DNA of 64,000 bases, taken from positions 868,001-932,000 of the forward strand of contig NZ_OZ026470.1 in the NCBI RefSeq assembly GCF_964019925.1. Direction: 5' to 3'. The translations under genes and the position numbers were made by a program. Positions 31,094 to 49,146 of the stretch are shown piece after piece (the first letter of the stretch is position 1; each line of letters starts with the position of its first letter). This DNA is from Spiroplasma endosymbiont of Cantharis nigra. Its GTDB lineage: Bacteria > Bacillota_I > Bacilli_A > Mycoplasmatales > Mycoplasmataceae. The notes under the pieces were generated by a model that saw nothing but the letters and a program-made list of their open reading frames with translations, did no database searches and was not told where the DNA came from.

Positions 31094-31918
31094 CTATTTA
31101 AGTGAATTTGAAAATAGCATAAATGAAATTGATGACAATGGAATAATAAATAAAAATGAACTTATTATTGGAATAGTTATATTTTCAAAATATACCACTG
31201 TATTAATTTTATTGATAAATAAATATATCATAGTTTTATCTAAAAAAGCATCACTAAAGCTAAGATAAAAAATTCAATTTAGATATTTTTGTGGAGACGT
31301 AAAACTTAAACTACTACAAAAAACATTATCATATAAAATTGTTTCTAAGAAAAAATCCGAAAATATAAGTATATATATAATAAATATTAATATTAGTGAA
31401 TTTGATAAGTATACATTAGTGATTTTTCCTGCAATTAAAAGAGATATAGAAAAATATAATAAAATCATTAAAAAAATTGAAAATAAAAATATAATAAAGC
31501 CACCAATACTCTTAAATTCAAAGATAAGTTTACTATAATTACCAAAGCTAAAAGTAGCATCTATTAGTAATAAAAATGAGTTTGAAATGGTATAACTTAA
31601 AATACTATAAATAAAAAATATTAAAAGAAATGAAAGAAAAAAACATATTTTAGTTATACCAAAATTATTAAGTTGCCTTAAAAAAACTGTCTCTCTTCAC
31701 GTAATAATAAAATGTGCAGAGAAAAAAGTCATAAAAATTAGTGGTAATGTAGAAAAAGTAACACTTTTTTGTACATTTTCATTATTAATAAGATTTTTTA
31801 AAAATAAAAAATACAAACTTGTAATAAAAAATAAAGGAATAAAAATTACAAAAATATAAGTTCAAGTAGATAATATTGTACTTCTAAAAATATAGGAAAT
31901 TGTTTTTTTAAATTTCAT
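31094..31918 (-). CDS. ABC-2-type membrane permease, second of the GH85 operon (274 aa)
   Basis: About six hydrophobic segments with little polar loop; the N terminus is MKFKKTISYIFRSTILSTWTY, and a conserved-looking amphipathic helix TWRETVFLRQLNNFGITK follows the second segment, where ABC-2 permeases carry the coupling helix. It is similar in size and layout to the permease at 34.6-35.4 kb, so the two probably form a heterodimer with the ATPase at 35.4 kb. It starts 6 bases after the stop of the GH85-like gene (TAG 31925-31927) and has no obvious ribosome binding site, which suggests translational coupling. The transported molecule is unknown. Confidence 0.75.
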
Positions 31919-31924
31919 TAGATT

Positions 31925-34606
31925 CTATAAATTTATATTAAATTTATATTCCTCACCTTCTATTGATTGATTTTTATTTCTTGGTCTTATGCTTAACAGG
32001 ACCTTATTATTTTTTGCTTTTAAATCTCTTAAAAAATAATTTGTAGAGGTAGTTTCTCCAACTCTATATCACTTTTTCTCATAATATACAAGAATATCAA
32101 AATAATCAAAATCATTATCTTTTAAATAATTTCATGAGAAGCGAATATTATAGGTATCAGAATTATCTCTTTTTATTGCATACTCTACATCTAAATCAAC
32201 TTCTTGAGACGAGTTATTTTTTTCAGAATTAATATTCATTATATTATTTATTTGAATTTCTCCAACATTAATTTTAAAAATTGATTTTTTATTTGGATTT
32301 ATTGACAAACCCACTTTTGAGATAGTTTCAAATTCTGAAGATAAATTTAAATCATTTAAATTCACTTTTAACTCCACTCAATCATTTGTTAAATAGGTTC
32401 TTGATAATAAGTTATCCACTTTAATTTTCTTTGAAATCTTACTATTTTTATTAATACCTGTTAAATTAAGGTTAATATCTATATCATCTAAATTATCAAC
32501 TTTGTAGACTACTTTTATTTCTTTATCATTTGATAAAAAGTCAGTTCCCAAAATATCCCATTCGTAGTTTTTAGTATCTCATTCTGTTGAAAGTATTCTT
32601 CCTTCCTCATCAAAGCCACTACCAATTGCTATTGAGTTCCCCTTATTATAAACTTCATCATAATCAAAACCTCCATAAAATTTATTTATAGGTAGTGCTT
32701 GATTTGAATTTTGTGAATCATAAATTCTTCATCTATATGTAGGTAATACATCTGCAAGTCTTCTATTTGTTCATGGATAATTTTCAACAGTATAATTTTC
32801 ATTTTTAAATTTAATTCCATTACCTGTAGAAAAGTTAGTCTTAAAATTTCTTTGATTTAAATAGTTATCTGTTATTATTGTTTTTTCAGGAATTAAATCT
32901 CCAACTCCAAAACTATTGCTGTTTATTGAACTGCTATTTTTTGAGTAATCATAAACAAAATCATATATTTTTTTAGTATCTTCGTTTTCCTTTAATTTTT
33001 TTTCTAATTTATTTTTATTTTTAAATTTAATTCTTGGATCTGCTATAATAGCATTTTTATCATAGTTACTTTGCTTTAAATTATTTGAAAGTAAATTTTT
33101 TGATAGACCCTTGTTATTTTTAGAAACAAATAAATTAGTGCCACTAAATTGAATATCATTAAATAAATTACCAACTTGATTTGCAAATAAGTAATTTCTT
33201 AATTTGTCTGTATTTGGTATAGTTTTGATATAGTTATAAGCTTCATTTGCAAAAATTCCAGAACCGTTGTCTAAGTAAGTTGCAAAAGAAGAATAAATAT
33301 CCTTGTCAAATTTTTGTTCTGATTGAGAATATTTATATGCTAGATCTTTAAAATCCAAAGACCCATAATAAAAAGAATTTGCTCCCTGATCTATTAATGT
33401 AAAAACATCTTCAGAATTATATTCTTGGTGTTGTTTTAAAAAGTATTGAGAATTTTCTGGCAATTCTCCAAAGTTAACTTGCATTTTTATCTTTTTCTGA
33501 TTTTCTCCCATCAAATAATTAGCCTGAGCCATTTTAACCATTTCTTTATCAACATAGATTCCATTATTTTCTTTTAAAGTTGCATCATTTCTATAGTAAA
33601 ATAATTCTAATTTATTTATTTTATCATCATTTGACTTTGCAACTGTTTCCTGAAACTGTTTTATAATTTCAAACATTTCATTATAATTTAATATTGTTCC
33701 ATTTGGTAATTGACCATTTGCTTCATTATTAATGAATCACCCATCAAAACCCATATAGGCTGCAATATCAATTAAAATATCAACTATTTTATACCTACCA
33801 CTTTTATCTTTCTGTATGAAATCTCTTAGCATTTCTCTTGTTAAACCATGATATCCATCAAGAAAAATATTACCATATACCTCTGAGCCATTTTTATGAG
33901 CAAACTCTACAGTATCAGCTGGGGGAGGAATGATAGGACCTTCAAATCATGAGCCTGATCAGTTTATAAATTGATTAACATATTGTCAATTAGTTGTAGA
34001 ATTCTCAAAAGGGTTTTTTGTACCAACAATTGTATTATCAAAGGTTCTATGTTTTCTAGTTGAAAAACCTAAAGCATTATACTTTAGTCTTTCATCTTGA
34101 TTTTCAGAAATTTTGGTTGGAACAAAAACTCTTTCTGTTATATTTGAATTTGATACATTAAATTTTGCATCTTTGTCTTTACTTGAATCTCAATCAAGTA
34201 TACTGTTTAATCTACGAAAGGCTTGAGCCTTTGACTCTATTCCAAAATCAGAAGCATAATTTCCATTAGGCATAAATCCCTTATTTAAAGGAACTCCAGT
34301 AACAGCTTGCTTATTTATATTTTGATTTCATTGAAATCCTGTATTAAATTTATTGTAATTAATGTAAGAACCTTGCAATTTTGGTTTTACTTCTTTTATT
34401 GTTGGACCAGTAGCATTTTCTTCAATACTTTGAAAGTAGTTATTAAAGATTATTCCATCACCTACTTCAGAATCTGCTCAATTAAAATCTGATAAATTAG
34501 ATAAAAACTTATTTGAATCTACATTACCAATTGAACAAGATATTATAGAGATTGTTGAAGATATAACTAATGATCCTGCTAATAAAAATGATACTAATTT
34601 TTTCAT
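31925..34606 (-). CDS. GH85-like endo-beta-N-acetylglucosaminidase lipoprotein (893 aa)
   Basis: Residues 1-24 are a lipoprotein signal, MKKLVSFLLAGSLVISS...SIISC, with the lipid-bearing cysteine at 24. Residues about 60-330 resemble the GH85 catalytic barrel: WSGSWFEGPIIPPPADTVEFAH, HKNGSEVYGNIFLDG, and GFDGWFINNEANG, whose Asn293/Glu295 correspond to the N-x-E catalytic pair of that family. A long middle region follows, and residues about 690-890 form beta-rich carbohydrate-binding-like domains (VELKVNLNDLNLSS, FDILVYYEKKWYRVGET). GH85 enzymes cut between the two GlcNAc residues of the N-glycan core, so this surface protein could release host glycans. The ATG lies 2 bases past the permease stop. 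The call rests on motif memory; no alignment was run. Confidence 0.78.
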
Positions 34607-34608
34607 AA

Positions 34609-35451
34609 TTAATTTTTAACTCCAATTCTAAAAAAATATTTGTAAAAGACGAATGCTAAAACTATAAAAATTATTTCAAAGGGTATTGTTATATATATAC
34701 CCTTAAAAGACACTCAGTCTCCTTCTTTATAATTTGGTAAAATCTGAGTAATACCATATTTATCTATAAATTGATAAGATGTAACTAACATATTTGTTCA
34801 AACGAAATATTTAATAGGATTTAAATAGCCCAGAACCTCATAACTAATATTTCCACTTAAACTATATGGAGGAATTAATATTTCTGAAGTTATTAATAAA
34901 TAAATAAAAACTAGAAAAATATAAATCATACAAAGTGGTACTTTTGTGGATAAAGAAGTTAATGCAAAAAATAGGCAAGATATAAATATTGTTTGAAGTA
35001 CTAAATTAATAATTAAAATAAGTCAAATAAAAAATTCTATATTACCAAGAAGATTATAATCATATCTAATTACCTTTGTTGCATCAAATATAACATGTAG
35101 AAGTATATTTAGTGTAAAAGATGAAAAACCTAAAATTAAGGATATCACTATTAATGAGATTAATAAATTTAATTTATTAATTATCCCAAAGTTTATCTTT
35201 ATAAGATAATTTCGTTTTTTTCATTCTAATAAAGTTAGAGATACATATAAAGGTGCAATTATAAAAGATATTGATAAATAATTTAATAATTGTGGAGGTA
35301 ATAATAAATAAATTGAATAGTTCATTCAAACGTATATGAATAGAAAACATAATCCTGCAGATAATAAATATACATATATATAAGTTTTAAATGAAGTAAA
35401 TATATTTCTTAATAATAAGAAAAATAACTTGTATAAACTACTATTTTTCAT
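34609..35451 (-). CDS. ABC-2-type membrane permease, first of the GH85 operon (280 aa)
   Basis: A polytopic protein with six to seven hydrophobic segments and the amphipathic coupling-type helix LLEWKKRNYLIKINFGIINK after the second. Its ATG (35449-35451) overlaps the end of the ATPase gene by 11 bases, which ties the two together as an ABC transporter. The GH85-like lipoprotein follows after 2 bases, and a second permease after that. The transporter type suggests export or movement of a lipid-linked or polymeric substrate, not classic sugar uptake, but nothing in the sequence names the substrate. Confidence 0.75.
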
Positions 35452-36136
35452 TTTCATAATAGTAAATCAATCTTTCTCTTAAACTCTTATATTTCTTTTT
35501 TATTTCAGTTACCTTTTTATCTTCAAATATAACTCCATCTTTTAAGATTATTACTCTGTCACATAGTGATTCAACTTCTTCAGGAATATGAGAAACAATT
35601 AACAAAATAATATTATTTGTTGCCTTATAATTTTTAAAAAAACTAATTAATCTTATTTGCATTTCCAAATCCAAACCTGTGATAAGTTCATCAAGTATTA
35701 GAATATCAGGTTTATTTATAATTGATAAAAAACAGTTTGCTCTTTGCCTTTGCCCACCTGAAAGAGAGAACATATCTTTTTTAATTATTTCTTTTAAATT
35801 AAAAGCTAATGATAGCTCTTGAAATTCTTCAGTGTCAAAGTACTCTTTATTTCTAAAAAATTTAACTAAATCATACACTCTTGTTCCTATTGGTCAACTT
35901 CCATCTTGAAATTGCATTCCTATTTTCTTATTAATTTTGTTTTTTTCATTATCTAAATATTCAATCTCACCACTTGATGGTTTTATAACTTTTGCAATAA
36001 TTTCTGCTAACGTTGTCTTTCCACAACCATTGGAACCCAATATGGCAATAGACTCATTATCTAAAATATTTAAATTTATTCCTTTTAATACTTCATTTTT
36101 TTTATATTTTTTACAAATATCTACAAGTTCTATCAC
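35441..36136 (-). CDS. ABC transporter ATP-binding protein (231 aa)
   Basis: Compact ATPase with Walker A GSNGCGKTT near residue 36, Q-loop MQFQDGSW, signature LSGGQRQRA, Walker B ILILDELITGLD and H-loop IVSHIPEEV. I start it at GTG 36136 because MIELVDICKKYKKNE is the normal N terminus, AGTAGG lies about ten bases upstream, and the previous gene's stop (TAG 36148-36150) leaves no room for an earlier one. It energises the two permeases downstream. Part of the phase-variable-looking operon that begins at 37155. Confidence 0.92.
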
Positions 36137-36147
36137 TTTAAATAAAC

Positions 36148-37155
36148 CTACTTTCTAAAATATATAAAATTATATACATCTTCTATATATGGTTCTAATA
36201 CTTTATTTACTTTTGCAATAGGTTGTGGTGTCAAAGCTTGACAATCATTTACTTCTTTAATGCCACTTTGCATATTTGAACCTATTTTTAATTCAACCTC
36301 ATTATTAATACTTGAGTAATAATAATTATTGTAATTTTTAACTTTTGCAAAATAATTATTTGATGATTTTAATATTTCTATCTCATCAATTTTTAAATCT
36401 TTATTATTTTCTTTTAATTGTTCTTTAATTTTATCCTCATCATCTTCATTTATAATAGTTGGATTTGTTAAATCACATGTCATTTTTCTTCTTAAAGTAT
36501 GGGGCTTAGTTCAATCACTATTACCCTTATTATCAAATTGTCTATAACTTCCAAAAGTATAGAAATCCAAATTAAAATCCTTTTCAACATTTTGTCCAAG
36601 CTCTTGAATTCATATTTTTACTCATTGAAAATATGTTATTGCTGAAAATTCTTTTAAAGCTCAAATAACTACATTTTTATCAGTTGCAATAAGAGGCAAA
36701 TCTGGTTGAGTCAAATAATTTATTCTAGACTCTATAAAAAGTGTTCTCAAATAATATGCAGTGAATATTTGTAAATCATCACTTTCAGCTGCTTTCAAAA
36801 TTATTTGATCAATATCTTCTTGAGGAATTTCTACAATTGGATTCTCGTAAGCATTTGGATTATATTTATAAAAAAGGTCAGAATAACTTTTCTTATAAAA
36901 CTCTATTAGATTATTATTATATTTGTTTTGTTCCTCGATCGATTCATCTGCTAATTTTTTTCATAAATTTAAATTATTATTATTAAGTTCAGGAAATTCT
37001 CTTTTTGGATTTATTATAGAAATTAGTCTATTTTCCAATTTATTAGAGAAAGAGTTATTTATAAAAAAATAACTTAAATTAAAAATGAAACATACAATTA
37101 TACAAAGCACTGAACCAATCAAAAAAATTTTTTTTGTAGTAAAATTTTTCTTCAT
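36148..37155 (-). CDS. Membrane-anchored extracellular protein (335 aa), first gene of the GH85 operon
   Basis: An N-terminal hydrophobic segment, KKIFLIGSVLCIIVCFIFNL (about 8-28), anchors a polar, mostly helical domain of about 300 residues outside the cell. No lipobox, catalytic motif or repeat is evident. It has a Cys at about 238 and another near 305 (MTCDLTNP and VNDCQALTPQP). The start ATG 37155 follows AGGAT; a 10-codon ORF with its own good ribosome binding site sits just upstream. The gene leads the operon with an ATPase, two permeases and the GH85-like lipoprotein, so it may be an outer subunit of that transporter. No family is recognised. Confidence 0.7.
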
Positions 37156-37166
37156 AAATTTTTATC

Positions 37167-37199
37167 CTATTTTTTTCTTTTATTTATATTTTTTTTCAT
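37167..37199 (-). CDS. 10-aa leader peptide of the GH85 operon
   Basis: ATG 37199 follows AAAAGGA at a good distance. The peptide is MKKNINKRKK, ending TAG 37167 where the stop itself overlaps the TAGGAT ribosome binding site of the next gene. The very lysine-rich code could also be chance in AT-rich DNA. Confidence 0.4.
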   Translation of the reverse strand: MKKNINKRKK

Positions 37200-37255
37200 A
37201 ATATTCCTTTTGCTTAAATTTTTAATAAATTTAAACACACACAAACTTTTTTAAT

Positions 37256-37289
37256 AAAAACTATATTTATTTTCATAAATATAGTTTTT
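37256..37289 (-). repeat. Inverted repeat at the predicted transcript start of the GH85 operon
   Basis: AAAAACTATATTTA pairs exactly with TAAATATAGTTTTT around a six-base loop, placed right after the -10 box. In RNA it would be a 14-bp 5' hairpin that could stabilise the message or act as a terminator for plus-strand readthrough. Confidence 0.6.
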
Positions 37290-37314
37290 ATTATATGCTT
37301 TTTTTTTTTTTTTT
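37290..37314 (-). promoter_or_regulatory. Promoter with 16-base poly-A spacer (candidate phase-variable switch)
   Basis: On the minus strand 16 A (37299-37314) run up to GCA and a perfect TATAAT (37290-37295), so the homopolymer fills most of the -35/-10 spacer. Slippage in the A tract would change the spacing and switch the operon on or off, as known for the vlp promoters of Mycoplasma hyorhinis. No good -35 hexamer is visible. Confidence 0.6.
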
Positions 37315-37337
37315 CCACATAACAAACTTTTTTTATA

Positions 37338-37376
37338 TAAAAATGCAAAAAAATGCAAAAAAATGCATTTTTTAAT
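37338..37376 (-). terminator. Repeated AAAAATGC units and terminator after potCD
   Basis: A 10-base unit (AAATGCAAAA) occurs twice and a third time partly. On the minus strand AAAAAATGC-ATTTTTT forms a palindrome followed by repeated T-runs, directly after the potCD stop. It is the only stop signal between potCD and the next operon. Confidence 0.6.
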
Positions 37377-40300
37377 TAATGTTTAGTTGAAATTATCTGA
37401 TTGAATTTATCAACTAAGTAATTGTCAAATTTTTCATCAAAACTAAATGAATCTCCTTCTTGAGGCGTAAATCATTTCTCTCATTCATCGCCTTTTGTCA
37501 TTCCATATTCTAATATCTCTTGAAATCCAGTAGGCATCCCAGTTTCATCAACAAGAGCCTCTTGAGAGTCTCTACTATAAATAAAGTTTATAAAAGCATA
37601 AGTTGCTTCTAACTCTCTATTTCCACTTGAAATAACAAGATTATCACTTCATAGATTTGTTGATTCTTTTTTAACTTCTTTATCTAAAATTTTAATATTT
37701 TTATGTGTTAAATCTTTTCTAGGTACTTCTGATATTATTGTAAAATCAAAATTATTTGATTGAACCTCTTCTCGATTGACTATTAAGTTATCTTCTTCAA
37801 CTTCACTTTCATAGTCATCTTGAGTTGCATAAATTAAATCTCCATTATACATTACTGCAATATCAAAATCTTTATCATGAACTTTATCTTGAAGTTGATC
37901 TCCATATAATCCTACATTTCTATAGCTTACAAGATTTTTAATTTCATTTGACACATTATCAATTTGTTGCTGTTTACTTAATGCAACATTGCTAACTGTA
38001 AGACCATCTTTTGCCTCAACATTTCCATATAGCTTTTCAAAACCATACATAAATACATTTTTGGGGTCTTCATTTAATGCAAGATTAAATCCAGCTTCTG
38101 CACCTTTTCATAAGATGTCCCATGATAATTTATTAGGATCTATTTCATAAAACATGCTTTTTTGATTTATTTGTTCTGTGAATATATTTTGCTCCTTTAA
38201 GAAATTTACTAATTTTGTATTTTCCTTAAATTGACCATTCACCATATCCCCTAAGTTAAATACAATTCTAACATCTCCTCAAAATCAAGGAATTGAATAA
38301 TCTAATAAGTTAGAAGAAATATCATCAGCATCTTTGAATTTATGATTTTCATGAGCGTCTAAAATATTGCAATTATAGTGTAATATTTCTTTCTCTATTT
38401 CGTCCTCTTGAAATAAAGTATCATTACAAACTTTAGAGCTAGGATTTTCAATTGGATTTTCAATTGTTTCAACTTTATCTCAATCAATTTTTTGTAAGGC
38501 ACCTTCTGTAGCTAATTTTTCAACCATGTAATCACTTGGCACCATTATGTCATAGTTAAATGTGTATGTTTTATTATATAGAGACTCATTTGAATCATAT
38601 TGTTGATAGTTAACTTTATACCCTGTTTCTTTTTCAAACTTAGTAATTAAATTAACATCAATATAACTTCCTCAATTTCCAATTACTAAATCATAAATAT
38701 TATTCATTACATATGCTGTTGTTAATAATGAAAATGAGATTAATAGAGCTGAACCCATAGTAAGTTGCTTTCAGTTTCTTTTAATTCATCTATTTGACTT
38801 AGGAACATAAGTTTCTTCTAATACATCAGGAAAATACTTATCTTTTTTAGCTTTGACATAATTATTAACTTTTTCTAATTTTTCCTCTTTTATAGCTAAA
38901 TTAGAATTAATTGATTGAGTTGCTTCTTTAAGTTTTTCTTCTCTAATTTTTTGTAATTCAGCTAACTTAGATGAGTAACTTTCATCAACTTTATTTAATA
39001 AATTAATTTGCTTATCTATAGAATCCACAAGTGATATTTTTCTAAATACTTTTTCCTTAATTAATTTTAATTGTTCATATTTTTTTCTTGATTTTTCTTC
39101 ATTTTCTTTTTGTAATAAAGCCAATTTTTCAATAGTCATTCTTAGTTTATATTGATTTCTTCCCTCAAGTAAACTGTCTCTTTTAATAGAAAGTTCTTTT
39201 ATTTTTTTATTGTATCAAGAAATTTCTTTTGAGTTTGGATACTCTAAATTTGCCAACTCTTCTTTTAAATCAATTACTTGTTGACCAATTTCCAAAGCCT
39301 TATCTTTGTCATTTTGATTTCTTTCATTAATTCATTCAATTTCTTTTTCGTACTTATAAATTTTTCTTTCTAATTTACTTAAAACTTGCTCAAATTTTCT
39401 TATTTTTTTCTCATTTGTCATTTTTTTAATTTTTAATTCAATTTGTGATTTCTTAATATTTAACTTTTTAAATATTGTAAAATATCTTTTTTCTGTTTTA
39501 ATTTCTGATGAAATTAACTCTTTCTTTCACTCTAATTTACTAATTTTTTTATTGTTATTTTTACTATTTAATAACTTAAATTGAATTTTAAGCAATTTAA
39601 ATTTAGCCAAAAGTTTTAAATTTTTAGTCTTTTGTGTTCTAGTACCAGTTGAAAGACAACTTTGAAGATACTTAATTTCACTTTCAATTCTACTAATCAC
39701 TTTTATTTTATATTCACCTTTTTTAATTTGAACTTTCACATCTTTTGATTTCTGTAAAGCAATTTGAATTATATTTCAAATTAAAACTATAAGCACAATT
39801 GAAGCTACCAATAAAGTTCCAAAAGCATTTATATAGGGTTGCATTCTTTTAGCAGTATAAATAAAAGTAGATACGTTAGTTTGTCCTCCACCAGTAAAGT
39901 AAGAAATAATAAAATCATCAAAACTCATTGCAAAACAAATTGCTGCTGCTGTAATAATACAAGGTGTTAAAATTGGAAGAACAACTTTATAAAAAGTTTG
40001 TCTTTGATTTCCACCAAGATCTTTAGAAGCTTCAAGAATGTTTTTATCAATTCTGTTCATAAATGGAAGAACTGTAATAATTACATAAGGCACATTAAAA
40101 GAGATGTGCGCTGCAATTAAAGTAACAATTCCAAATTTTAATCCTGCAAGAACAAATAATAACATTAATCCTACTGCAGTAATAACATCAGCATTTACCA
40201 AAGGTATATTTGCTATCCTTACTCAATTATCTGCTGATCTCTTTTTAATTTTTGTTAATCCTACAACAGCCATCATACCAATTAGTAGTGACATTATTGT

Positions 40301-40507
40301 AGAAACCATTGCTACAAATAATGATACAGTTATTGATTTCATAAATGGAGAGTTATTGACTAAGGCACTATATCATTCCAAACTAAATCCACTTCAACTT
40401 GTAACACTACTACCAGAGTTAAATGAAAATATAATCATCACTGCAATTGGTACATAAATAAATAACATCATTATTAAGAAGTAACTTGATTTGATGAATT
40501 TTTTCAT
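37376..40507 (-). CDS. potCD: Spermidine/putrescine ABC transporter: PotC permease fused to PotD binding protein (1043 aa)
   Basis: Residues 1-260 are a PotC-type permease with six membrane segments and the EAA-like loop EASKDLGGNQRQTFYKVVLP. Residues about 270-590 form a long, strongly charged coiled coil, mostly K/E/L (for example KKYEQLKLIKEKVF and LQKIREEKLKEA). One membrane segment, MGSALLISFSLLTTAYVM near 600, brings the chain outside, where residues 620-1043 are a PotD-like binding protein (VIGNWGSYIDVNLITKFEKE, NYDIMVPSDYMVEKL, WDILWKG). The fusion ties the binding protein to the permease, as in other mollicutes lacking a periplasm. The start ATG 40507 lies inside the end of potB. The coiled-coil linker is unusually long. 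Confidence 0.92.
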
Positions 40508-42838: not shown

Positions 42839-45250
42839 TTAAAATTTATAGTTTTTAATTAATCAATTTATATAAGTTGCTTGACCTGATAAACTTTTAC
42901 TTGAAAAATTCTTATTATAGTCATAATAATTTAAATTTCATTTTTCACTAATATATCTATTTTCATCATCTGTAACGAATTGCAATACCTCTTTATAATT
43001 AACAAAGTTTGGATTATCTTGCAAAATAACTTTTGCCTTATTTACAAGATTAACTCCCTTAACCATATTAGTGTATCTTAAACTATCTAGCATTTCATTT
43101 CCATCACCAGGATAAATATAAAACGAATCTCCCGGCTCTTTTGTTGCATCTAAAACTTCACCATCTAATGAAATATCATTTTTATAACCATCTACTTGAT
43201 ATCTATCATAACCATCTGCTCCAACTTTACTTGAGAATAGCATTGCTCATAACATTTCATATCCATTACTATTTAAATAAGTAGCTGGATAATTATTTCA
43301 TGAAGAGTATATATGAGTTTTTTTATTTTGATAGTTTCTCTTATTAAAATATTTAATTAAATCATCTAGTTTTTTTTCTGTTTTACTAAATTCATAAATA
43401 AATTCTCTTTGCTGTAAAGTAACATAATCATAAACATCTAAAGCATTTTCAAGTCCTTCAAAATCTTTTGAATCCAATTTAAATTCTCATCCTCCATATA
43501 AATGACTTTTTCAAAAATTTTTATATTTATCATTAATTTCTTTAAAAATATCTATTGATAAATTATTTACTTCCGCTGAAAATTCATCATATGAATAGTA
43601 TATATTTATATCTTCATAAATATCACTATTTTGACTTGCATGTACTGCAAGTTGATCACGCAATAATGGGATCATTTGATTTATTATTGAAACACCATCT
43701 TCTGTTATTTCACCTTTATTATTTACATATAAACTATTTGCAGCAACTTGATAAGCTCTTTGATCTGAATCCTTGACAAAAAAATTAAACATATTAGAAG
43801 AACCCCTTGAGCCAATGGGTATTAATATATTTTTAACTCCACTATCTTTTAAAAACTTAACATATCTATCAAAAACTTTAAAATCTAATTTTCAAATTCC
43901 CTTATTATTGATTTGATTAAATATTTCTTCTAAATTATCTCCCATAAATTTATTTATAATATTTTTTTCACCTTCATTAGGTAAAAAAACATACTTTATA
44001 AAATTACCCAAACCAAAATTAGGCACTGAGATACTTTCATAATTTGATTTTTCAGACATTTCCTTTATTTTTCTTCCCAAGATATTATTTCTTGTAATTA
44101 AAGGGTTTGAATCTAAATACTTTGGCAAAGTTCTTGTAATATCATCTACTATTGCATAGTCATAATTGCCAATAATTTTTGTAGCCTGAGATTCAGTACT
44201 TAAAACCGCAGATTCTGTTAAATTATTCTCCTTATAAAAGTCAATATTTATATAATTAATTTGTTGACCTGCAGTTGTAACATATTTATATGTTTCTGAT
44301 TTTAATCAAACTCTTATAAATTCATCTTTTTGCTCTACATTATATACTTCAGAATCCTTTGGTAATAATGGATTCTCAATTCCAATTATATTTTTTAATT
44401 TTTTATAATCCTTAAAATCTATATTATCATCGTCTTTATAATCTACTTTTCTTTTAGTAACCACTTCATTTAGATTTTTTAAAATAAACTTTGAAGAAGT
44501 ATTTGGAAAAAACATTGCACTAGAACCAAAATCTGAAGTTTCATACTGCAAATTATCATTAATTATATATTCTTTATCTATGAAAATTTCTTTTTTAATA
44601 TTATTAATAATATAACTAATTTTTATTTTTAATAAACCTTCAGCAGCTTTATTATTACTAATATATCTAATTAATATTGGTTGAAAGCTTAAAGGCATCT
44701 GATCAAGATTATTATCATTAGATACTTGATCAAATGTATAAAATTCTCCAAGTGGAATTAAATCATTATTTGCCATTGTAGTATTATTACTTTTAATTGG
44801 ATTAATAACGTGAGCTGAAACATTGATATTTTCATTTTGATTTAAAATTTCTACATTAATATTTTTTATAGTATCTTGATTAATATTTTTAAATAATATA
44901 ATTTGCTCTTCAAAAATATCATTTTTTCAAAGTTTTACTTTATTATTGTAAATTTTTGTTCTTTTAACATTCACTTCATCTCCATAAAAATTATATTGAC
45001 TGTTATTCTTTTTATAAGTCACATAATTAAATTCTGTTTCACCAAAAAAATAAGATAAATCATTAGAGTATTCTAATTCTTTCTTATCTTCTTTTTTTAA
45101 AGGACCACTTTGTCAAACAGCAGATTGCTTATTATTAATAATAATATTTTTATTGTTTTTTAAAATCATAAATGTCATTGCAGTAACTATTGAAGTTACC
45201 AAGATTAAACTCATAAAAATTATTATTATGATCTTTGGTTTTCTTTTCAT
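42839..45250 (-). CDS. Membrane-anchored glycosidase-like protein (GH123/DUF4091 type, 803 aa)
   Basis: A single N-terminal membrane segment, IIIIIFMSLILVTSIVTAM (about 7-27), anchors a large extracellular protein. Residues 50-350 are beta-rich, as in the N-terminal domain of GH123-type enzymes. The middle holds a barrel-like region with INIYYSYDEFSAEVN, where Asp555-Glu556 match the D-E catalytic pair of that family. The region around residues 665-725 (LWAMLFSSKVGADGYDR, then GDSFYIYPGDGNEMLDSLRY and MVKGVNLVNKAK) follows the DUF4091 pattern GD-x-F-x-YPG...SLR. Known GH123 enzymes remove beta-GalNAc from glycolipids. The start ATG 45250 follows AAAGGAG. Assigned by motif memory without a search; the activity is inferred. 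Confidence 0.65.
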
Positions 45251-49113: not shown

Positions 49114-49146
49114 AAAAAAAAAAAAAAAATCACTGGCAAGTGATTT
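49114..49146 (-). terminator. Terminator after tRNA-Leu
   Basis: AAATCACT-TGCC-AGTGATTT (49127-49146) followed by 16 T on the minus strand. Confidence 0.95.

Follow-up and report, generated by a model that had tools for sequence, protein, structure and literature searches.

The only intergenic gap in front of a five-gene operon encoding a GH85 lipoprotein carries a run of sixteen A, which we read as a slippage-set tract; as it grows or shrinks, the promoter spacing of that operon would change with it. This is the most likely of the explanations weighed here, with a probability of roughly 0.45, and it makes the tract a good candidate, though no more than that, for switching the operon on and off at random. 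The tract belongs to a genome-wide set, many members of which are lipoprotein promoter spacers, and this class with its missing lengths is more surprising than the GH85 locus. The evidence for the class is strong and that at the GH85 locus is thin. The window, that is the whole stretch of 64,000 nucleotides analysed, covers positions 868001-932000 of a single-contig genome of 1,237,520 bases (here G000; 25.3% G+C, frames read with code 4). The genome holds five strong MreB_Mbl matches, and a sixth, weaker one sits in a 622-aa frame that we presume is probably DnaK. The five matches fit Spiroplasma, for which five MreB isoforms are named in PMC12337190. That the frames stay open under code 4 also speaks for Spiroplasma. 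Within the window, the operon and the sequences before it are laid out as follows.

31094..31918, minus strand: membrane protein closing the operon; orthologue at the same place in G019 (63%)
31925..34606, minus strand: lipoprotein of 893 aa, GH85 (endo-beta-N-acetylglucosaminidase family); PF03644, E 4.9e-24; lipobox-like ISCS at the N terminus
34609..35457, minus strand: membrane protein, probably the permease partner; relatives have homologues in the stretches fetched
35441..36136, minus strand: ABC transporter ATPase; PF00005, E 2e-24
36148..37155, minus strand: first gene, 335 aa, with a membrane anchor at the N terminus; 11 of 60 genomes, its own included, have a homologue
37255..37290, minus strand: perfect 16-bp inverted repeat with a loop of 4 nt, where the mRNA is predicted to begin
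37290..37295, minus strand: TATAAT, putative −10 box, read directly from the sequence and a promoter-like site in the scan; 3 nt past the tract
37299..37314, minus strand (the operon's coding strand): A16 tract, read directly from the sequence
37312..37317, minus strand: TGGAAA, best −35-like hexamer (4/6), 16 nt before the −10 box; weak, not above shuffles
37376..40507, minus strand: upstream gene, a permease fused to a solute-binding protein (PotCD-like); PF00528, PF13416, PF02030

The first-pass annotation had described sixteen A, three further bases and a perfect TATAAT, and the minus strand reads exactly so, in the order ATGTGG-A16-GCA-TATAAT, with A16 running from 37314 to 37299 and TATAAT from 37295 to 37290. 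The PotCD-like gene ends 61 nt before the tract. The operon that was said to follow, with a GH85-like lipoprotein in it, is borne out in its gene order: a membrane-anchored protein, an ABC ATPase, a membrane protein, the lipoprotein with its PF03644 match as the fourth gene, and a second membrane protein. The first protein has no match in Pfam or NCBIfam, and the membrane protein at 34609-35457 none in Pfam. By sequence, the surface proteins of the row would be the membrane-anchored first protein and the GH85 lipoprotein, their co-transcription being predicted. A few genes upstream of the operon, a GH123-like protein (42839-45250, minus strand; PF13320, E 1.2e-15) is probably a second glycan-cleaving enzyme in the neighbourhood.

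The length of the tract is beyond chance. A/T runs in the window number 41 at length 8, three at length 9 and two at length 16, so that the only runs longer than 9 are A16 at 37299-37314 and another A16 at 49114-49129; runs of at least 16 are absent from 60 Markov sequences of 64 kb (order 6, trained on the window). The second of these, A16 on the plus strand, is on the minus strand a T run preceded by a short hairpin behind a tRNA-Leu, apparently a terminator that has the locked length of the class.

The promoter geometry at the GH85 locus, by contrast with the tract's length, is not by itself more than chance. No TTG-type −35 abuts the tract, the best hexamer being TGGAAA, which overlaps the start of the tract with its final AAA. 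In a promoter scan of the region TGGAAA-16-TATAAT, with 10/12 matches, is one of two sites found, against 3.3 ± 2.0 in shuffles. The spacing of −10 box and start was taken from the S. melliferum promoter description, as given in passages of PMC5138195. The predicted leader, 135 nt long, folds at −23 kcal/mol against −9.3 ± 2.5 for shuffles (z −5.45). It also holds, just upstream of the first gene (37167-37199, minus strand), a ten-codon open frame, MKKNINKRKK, preceded by an AAGGA site.

A16's own genome contains 34 A/T runs of at least 11, this one included. Their lengths are 15 (one), 16 (27) and 17 (six), and A16 falls inside the 15-18 range of a class that extends well beyond this genome. 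We compiled 201 such tracts from five genomes of the genus (34/34 in G000, 83/83 in G019, 22/25 in G018, 29/34 in G001 and 33/54 in G015). Nine are 15 long, 101 are 16, 71 are 17, 15 are 18 and five are 19-21, and not one of the 201 has a length of 11-14. Shorter runs in the same five-genome DNA number 291 at length 8, 14 at length 9 and one at length 10. Across 20 genomes of the genus, 526 of the 539 runs of at least 11 reach at least 15, and the figures are 212 of 229 in 17 genomes from other genera of the family and 32 of 78 in 23 genomes from other families of the order. In samples of individual loci, lengths were 15-18 plus one 24 at a further 30 loci across the genus, 15-18 with a single 13 in other genera of the family (30 loci, six genomes), and 11 to 16 in other families (30 loci, six genomes). 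In this family A/T runs of 10-14 are nearly absent, those of 9 depleted and those of 15-18 common, a pattern that the order's other families do not share. One genome of the genus, G010, lacks A/T runs of at least 11. A literature search, with most subscription journals outside its reach, found no paper on length-locked tracts in Spiroplasma. Some tracts of the class come in pairs: T15-18 is followed directly by A15-18, forming a palindrome of 32-35 bp out of two locked tracts, at L109, L119, L131 and L157 in G019, at L164, L171 and L174 in G018, and at L186, L187 and L189 in G001.

On the coding strand, most tracts of the class show T instead of A. A gene starts within 200 nt in T orientation at 118 of the 201 tracts. 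TTG lies within 3 nt before the tract at 65 of these 118 starts, against 155 of 1618 controls (9.6%), and TAWAAT within 10 nt at 42 of them (control 128/1618). Lipoprotein-like genes follow 59 of the 118 T-side tracts and four of 38 on the A side, against 62 of 338 controls, these calls coming from a home-made pattern that also flags the first gene of the GH85 operon, probably wrongly. In one lipoprotein family of G019 the promoter reads TTGAC-T16-ATAAT, and the tract itself is the spacer. Of the 29 tract-adjacent proteins of G000, 17 match a tract-adjacent protein in one or more of the other four genomes (at least 35% identity over 60% of the length). These include what read as an SDR-like enzyme, a protein resembling the MBL fold and RpiR-like regulators.

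In A orientation 38 tracts have a gene start, of which 28 remain once ten in IS copies are left out. TTG stands within 3 nt before 11 of these 28 tracts, one of the 11, L146, being a double-tract artefact (control 217/2349), and TAWAAT occurs at four of the 28 (P 0.08). On these counts the A tract as a promoter spacer is real in the genus and a minority form, of which the GH85 locus carries just the −10 half. Two of the four TAWAAT cases (L158 in G019 and L175 in G018, with A16 and A18) precede genes that, from reading their sequences, are cytosine-methyltransferase-like; both have TTGC before the tract and a −10 box after it, and phase-variable methylation is possible there.

MutS1 is absent at the curated cut-off from all 60 genomes searched, in which there is one weak fragmentary match (G049), and 11 of 14 controls were positive. 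Among 11 copies of an IS in G019 that are near-identical (0-5 differences in 600 bases), eight have T16 and three T17, so slippage happens; two duplicated lipoprotein promoters have T15 and T17. The IS-like element, with its hairpin-T16/T17 near the end, recurs in G019 at L113, L115, L134, L142, L144, L145, L150, L153, L154 and L155, and forms a natural replicate series for tract length. Selection for spacer length was considered and rejected: tract length does not compensate for the offset of the flanks (rho 0.06, P 0.68, n = 53, the rows including 11 from a single IS, in which the TTG is part of the hairpin). Tracts at gene starts and tracts elsewhere are also of similar length; their length is therefore not adjusted to the promoter's needs, and this argues for mutation over promoter selection as what sets it. 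Nor do consensus lengths seem to fluctuate wildly, to judge from passages of PMC5034139, according to which one strain of S. turonicum, sequenced twice, differed by a single 1-bp homopolymer indel among 13 differences.

On the preferred reading, A/T tracts would arise by replication slippage and be held near 16-17 bases in a genome without MutS, and A16 would fill the spacer of the one promoter that is plausible for the GH85 operon. With one or two A more or fewer, the distance between TATAAT and the weak −35-like TGGAAA would alter, from a spacer of 16 at A16 to 17 at A17 and 18 at A18, and expression of the operon would as a result differ from cell to cell within a population. Use of this TATAAT for transcription, a variable length of A16 and any response of expression are what we infer. 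A bolder version seems to us possible, though less likely than not: that A/T runs in this one mollicute family are bistable, nearly absent at 9-14 and, once past a barrier, driven to and held at 15-18; that they may serve as promoter switches genome-wide, tens per genome and on either strand, for lipoproteins, transporters and regulators; and that the GH85 operon would have been drawn in on two occasions, through A16 in one species and through T17 in a relative.

The main rival, a quite possible one, is that the same slippage-made tract has no regulatory effect here, the operon being transcribed from a −10-only promoter, from another promoter or by read-through. The pairing of A16 with TATAAT is not beyond chance: over all 201 tracts, TAWAAT is no commoner than background within 10 nt of the A side (13/201, against 141/2349 for short A runs). 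The lack of a proper −35 points the same way, as do the tracts of equal length found at terminators, at IS ends and between convergent genes. Orthologous operons divide on the question. The closest, in G019, comprises the same five genes at 55-77% identity and has AATTG-T17-GATTATTATTATATAG 91 nt before its first gene, with T on the coding strand, opposite to the A16 studied here. A tract in this orthologous promoter region as well would be expected by chance at about 5% (our own estimate, from 83 tracts and ~1200 genes), which speaks against a tract without effect, as does the perfect TATAAT 3 nt away in the only gap before the operon. In the other nine genomes with a homologue of the first gene, however, the fetched stretch has no run above 9, and these nine operons without a tract favour the rival.

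An unlikely alternative is that the tract is a fixed structural element, a stretch of stiff A-tract DNA at about −31 to −16 that would help RNA polymerase at a promoter without a good −35, its length mattering little. This would suit a tract that spans the whole spacer next to a poor −35, and an A-side tract before an ABC ATPase gene is common to G000 (A16, L058) and G001 (A17, L180). A structural role sits less easily with the distribution of the tract: just two of the 11 genomes that have the first gene carry one, and the second of these two has T on the coding strand. We think it very improbable that the inverted repeat and T16 of the plus strand form an intrinsic terminator halting antisense transcription. 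The plus strand does read inverted repeat, ATATGC, T16, and hairpin-T16 terminator-like sites exist in the genus, for example after the tRNA-Leu and at IS ends; here, however, 6 nt separate stem and T16, so that the plus strand lacks a GC-containing stem followed directly by a T run, the region scan returned no terminator-like site, and no plus-strand gene ends at this place. That the strikingly uniform lengths are an assembly artefact is hardly credible, since the pattern recurs in many genomes of one family, the same search yields 11-16 in other families of the order, lengths do differ (15 to 21), and the S. turonicum resequencing, in the passages cited, altered one homopolymer only.

In the vlp genes of Mycoplasma hyorhinis, the poly-A tract lies between the −35 and −10 boxes. 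The first-pass annotation had likened the GH85 promoter to these genes, and the likeness, surface lipoprotein gene(s) whose promoter region contains a homopolymer of A, holds in part. The slip-prone length stands, as do the missing MutS1 and the existence of class tracts that abut TTG-type −35 and −10 boxes on their two sides at promoters of surface-protein genes; the comparison finds no support here in that no such −35 abuts A16, the class is mostly T on the coding strand, and the nine orthologous operons have no tract. Passages of PMC10502178 describe phase variation of the vlp surface lipoprotein genes through their poly-A promoters. That system is a paralogous gene family with ON/OFF clones, whereas here we have a candidate only, in a single-copy operon with an enzyme and no good −35, and the tracts of the genus are nearly all 15-18 long. 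Tandem paralogous lipoprotein genes, each with a tract, were not found at the locus, the first gene having one copy in its genome. By analogy A16 is a candidate switch that may work as in vlp.

Other mycoplasmas offer looser parallels. In Mycoplasma mycoides, repeats likewise lie within lipoprotein gene promoters: Vmm and other Lpp promoters contain poly-TA tracts whose repeat numbers vary by locus and strain. According to passages of the same source (PMC3053259) those are dinucleotide repeats of 10-16 units at five or six loci, whereas the tracts here are mononucleotide and occur at tens of loci. For Mycoplasma hyopneumoniae, passages of PMC5179023 describe runs of A or T, 8 to 25 long and for the most part near putative promoters, and mention neither a gap at 10-14 nor a length lock, both of which are present here. 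In mammalian genomes, as set out in passages of PMC12769509, short runs follow substitution and those above ~10 nt reach a separate, rapidly mutating balance without selection; the outcome there is an excess of long repeats, in contrast to the narrow peak at 15-18 with an empty zone below it seen here.

An analysis by Mrazek in 2006 reportedly placed long runs both upstream and downstream of genes. If the class works as it looks, these would be MutS-less bacteria with tens of slippage-prone promoter spacers of nearly equal length everywhere, and a culture's expression mosaics could then be predicted from sequence and counted in reads. The absent lengths of 10-14 are a clean natural gauge of how slippage behaves where mismatch repair is missing, one that this family offers and its sister families do not. 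If the preferred reading is true for the GH85 operon, cleavage of host N-glycans would be a choice made cell by cell.
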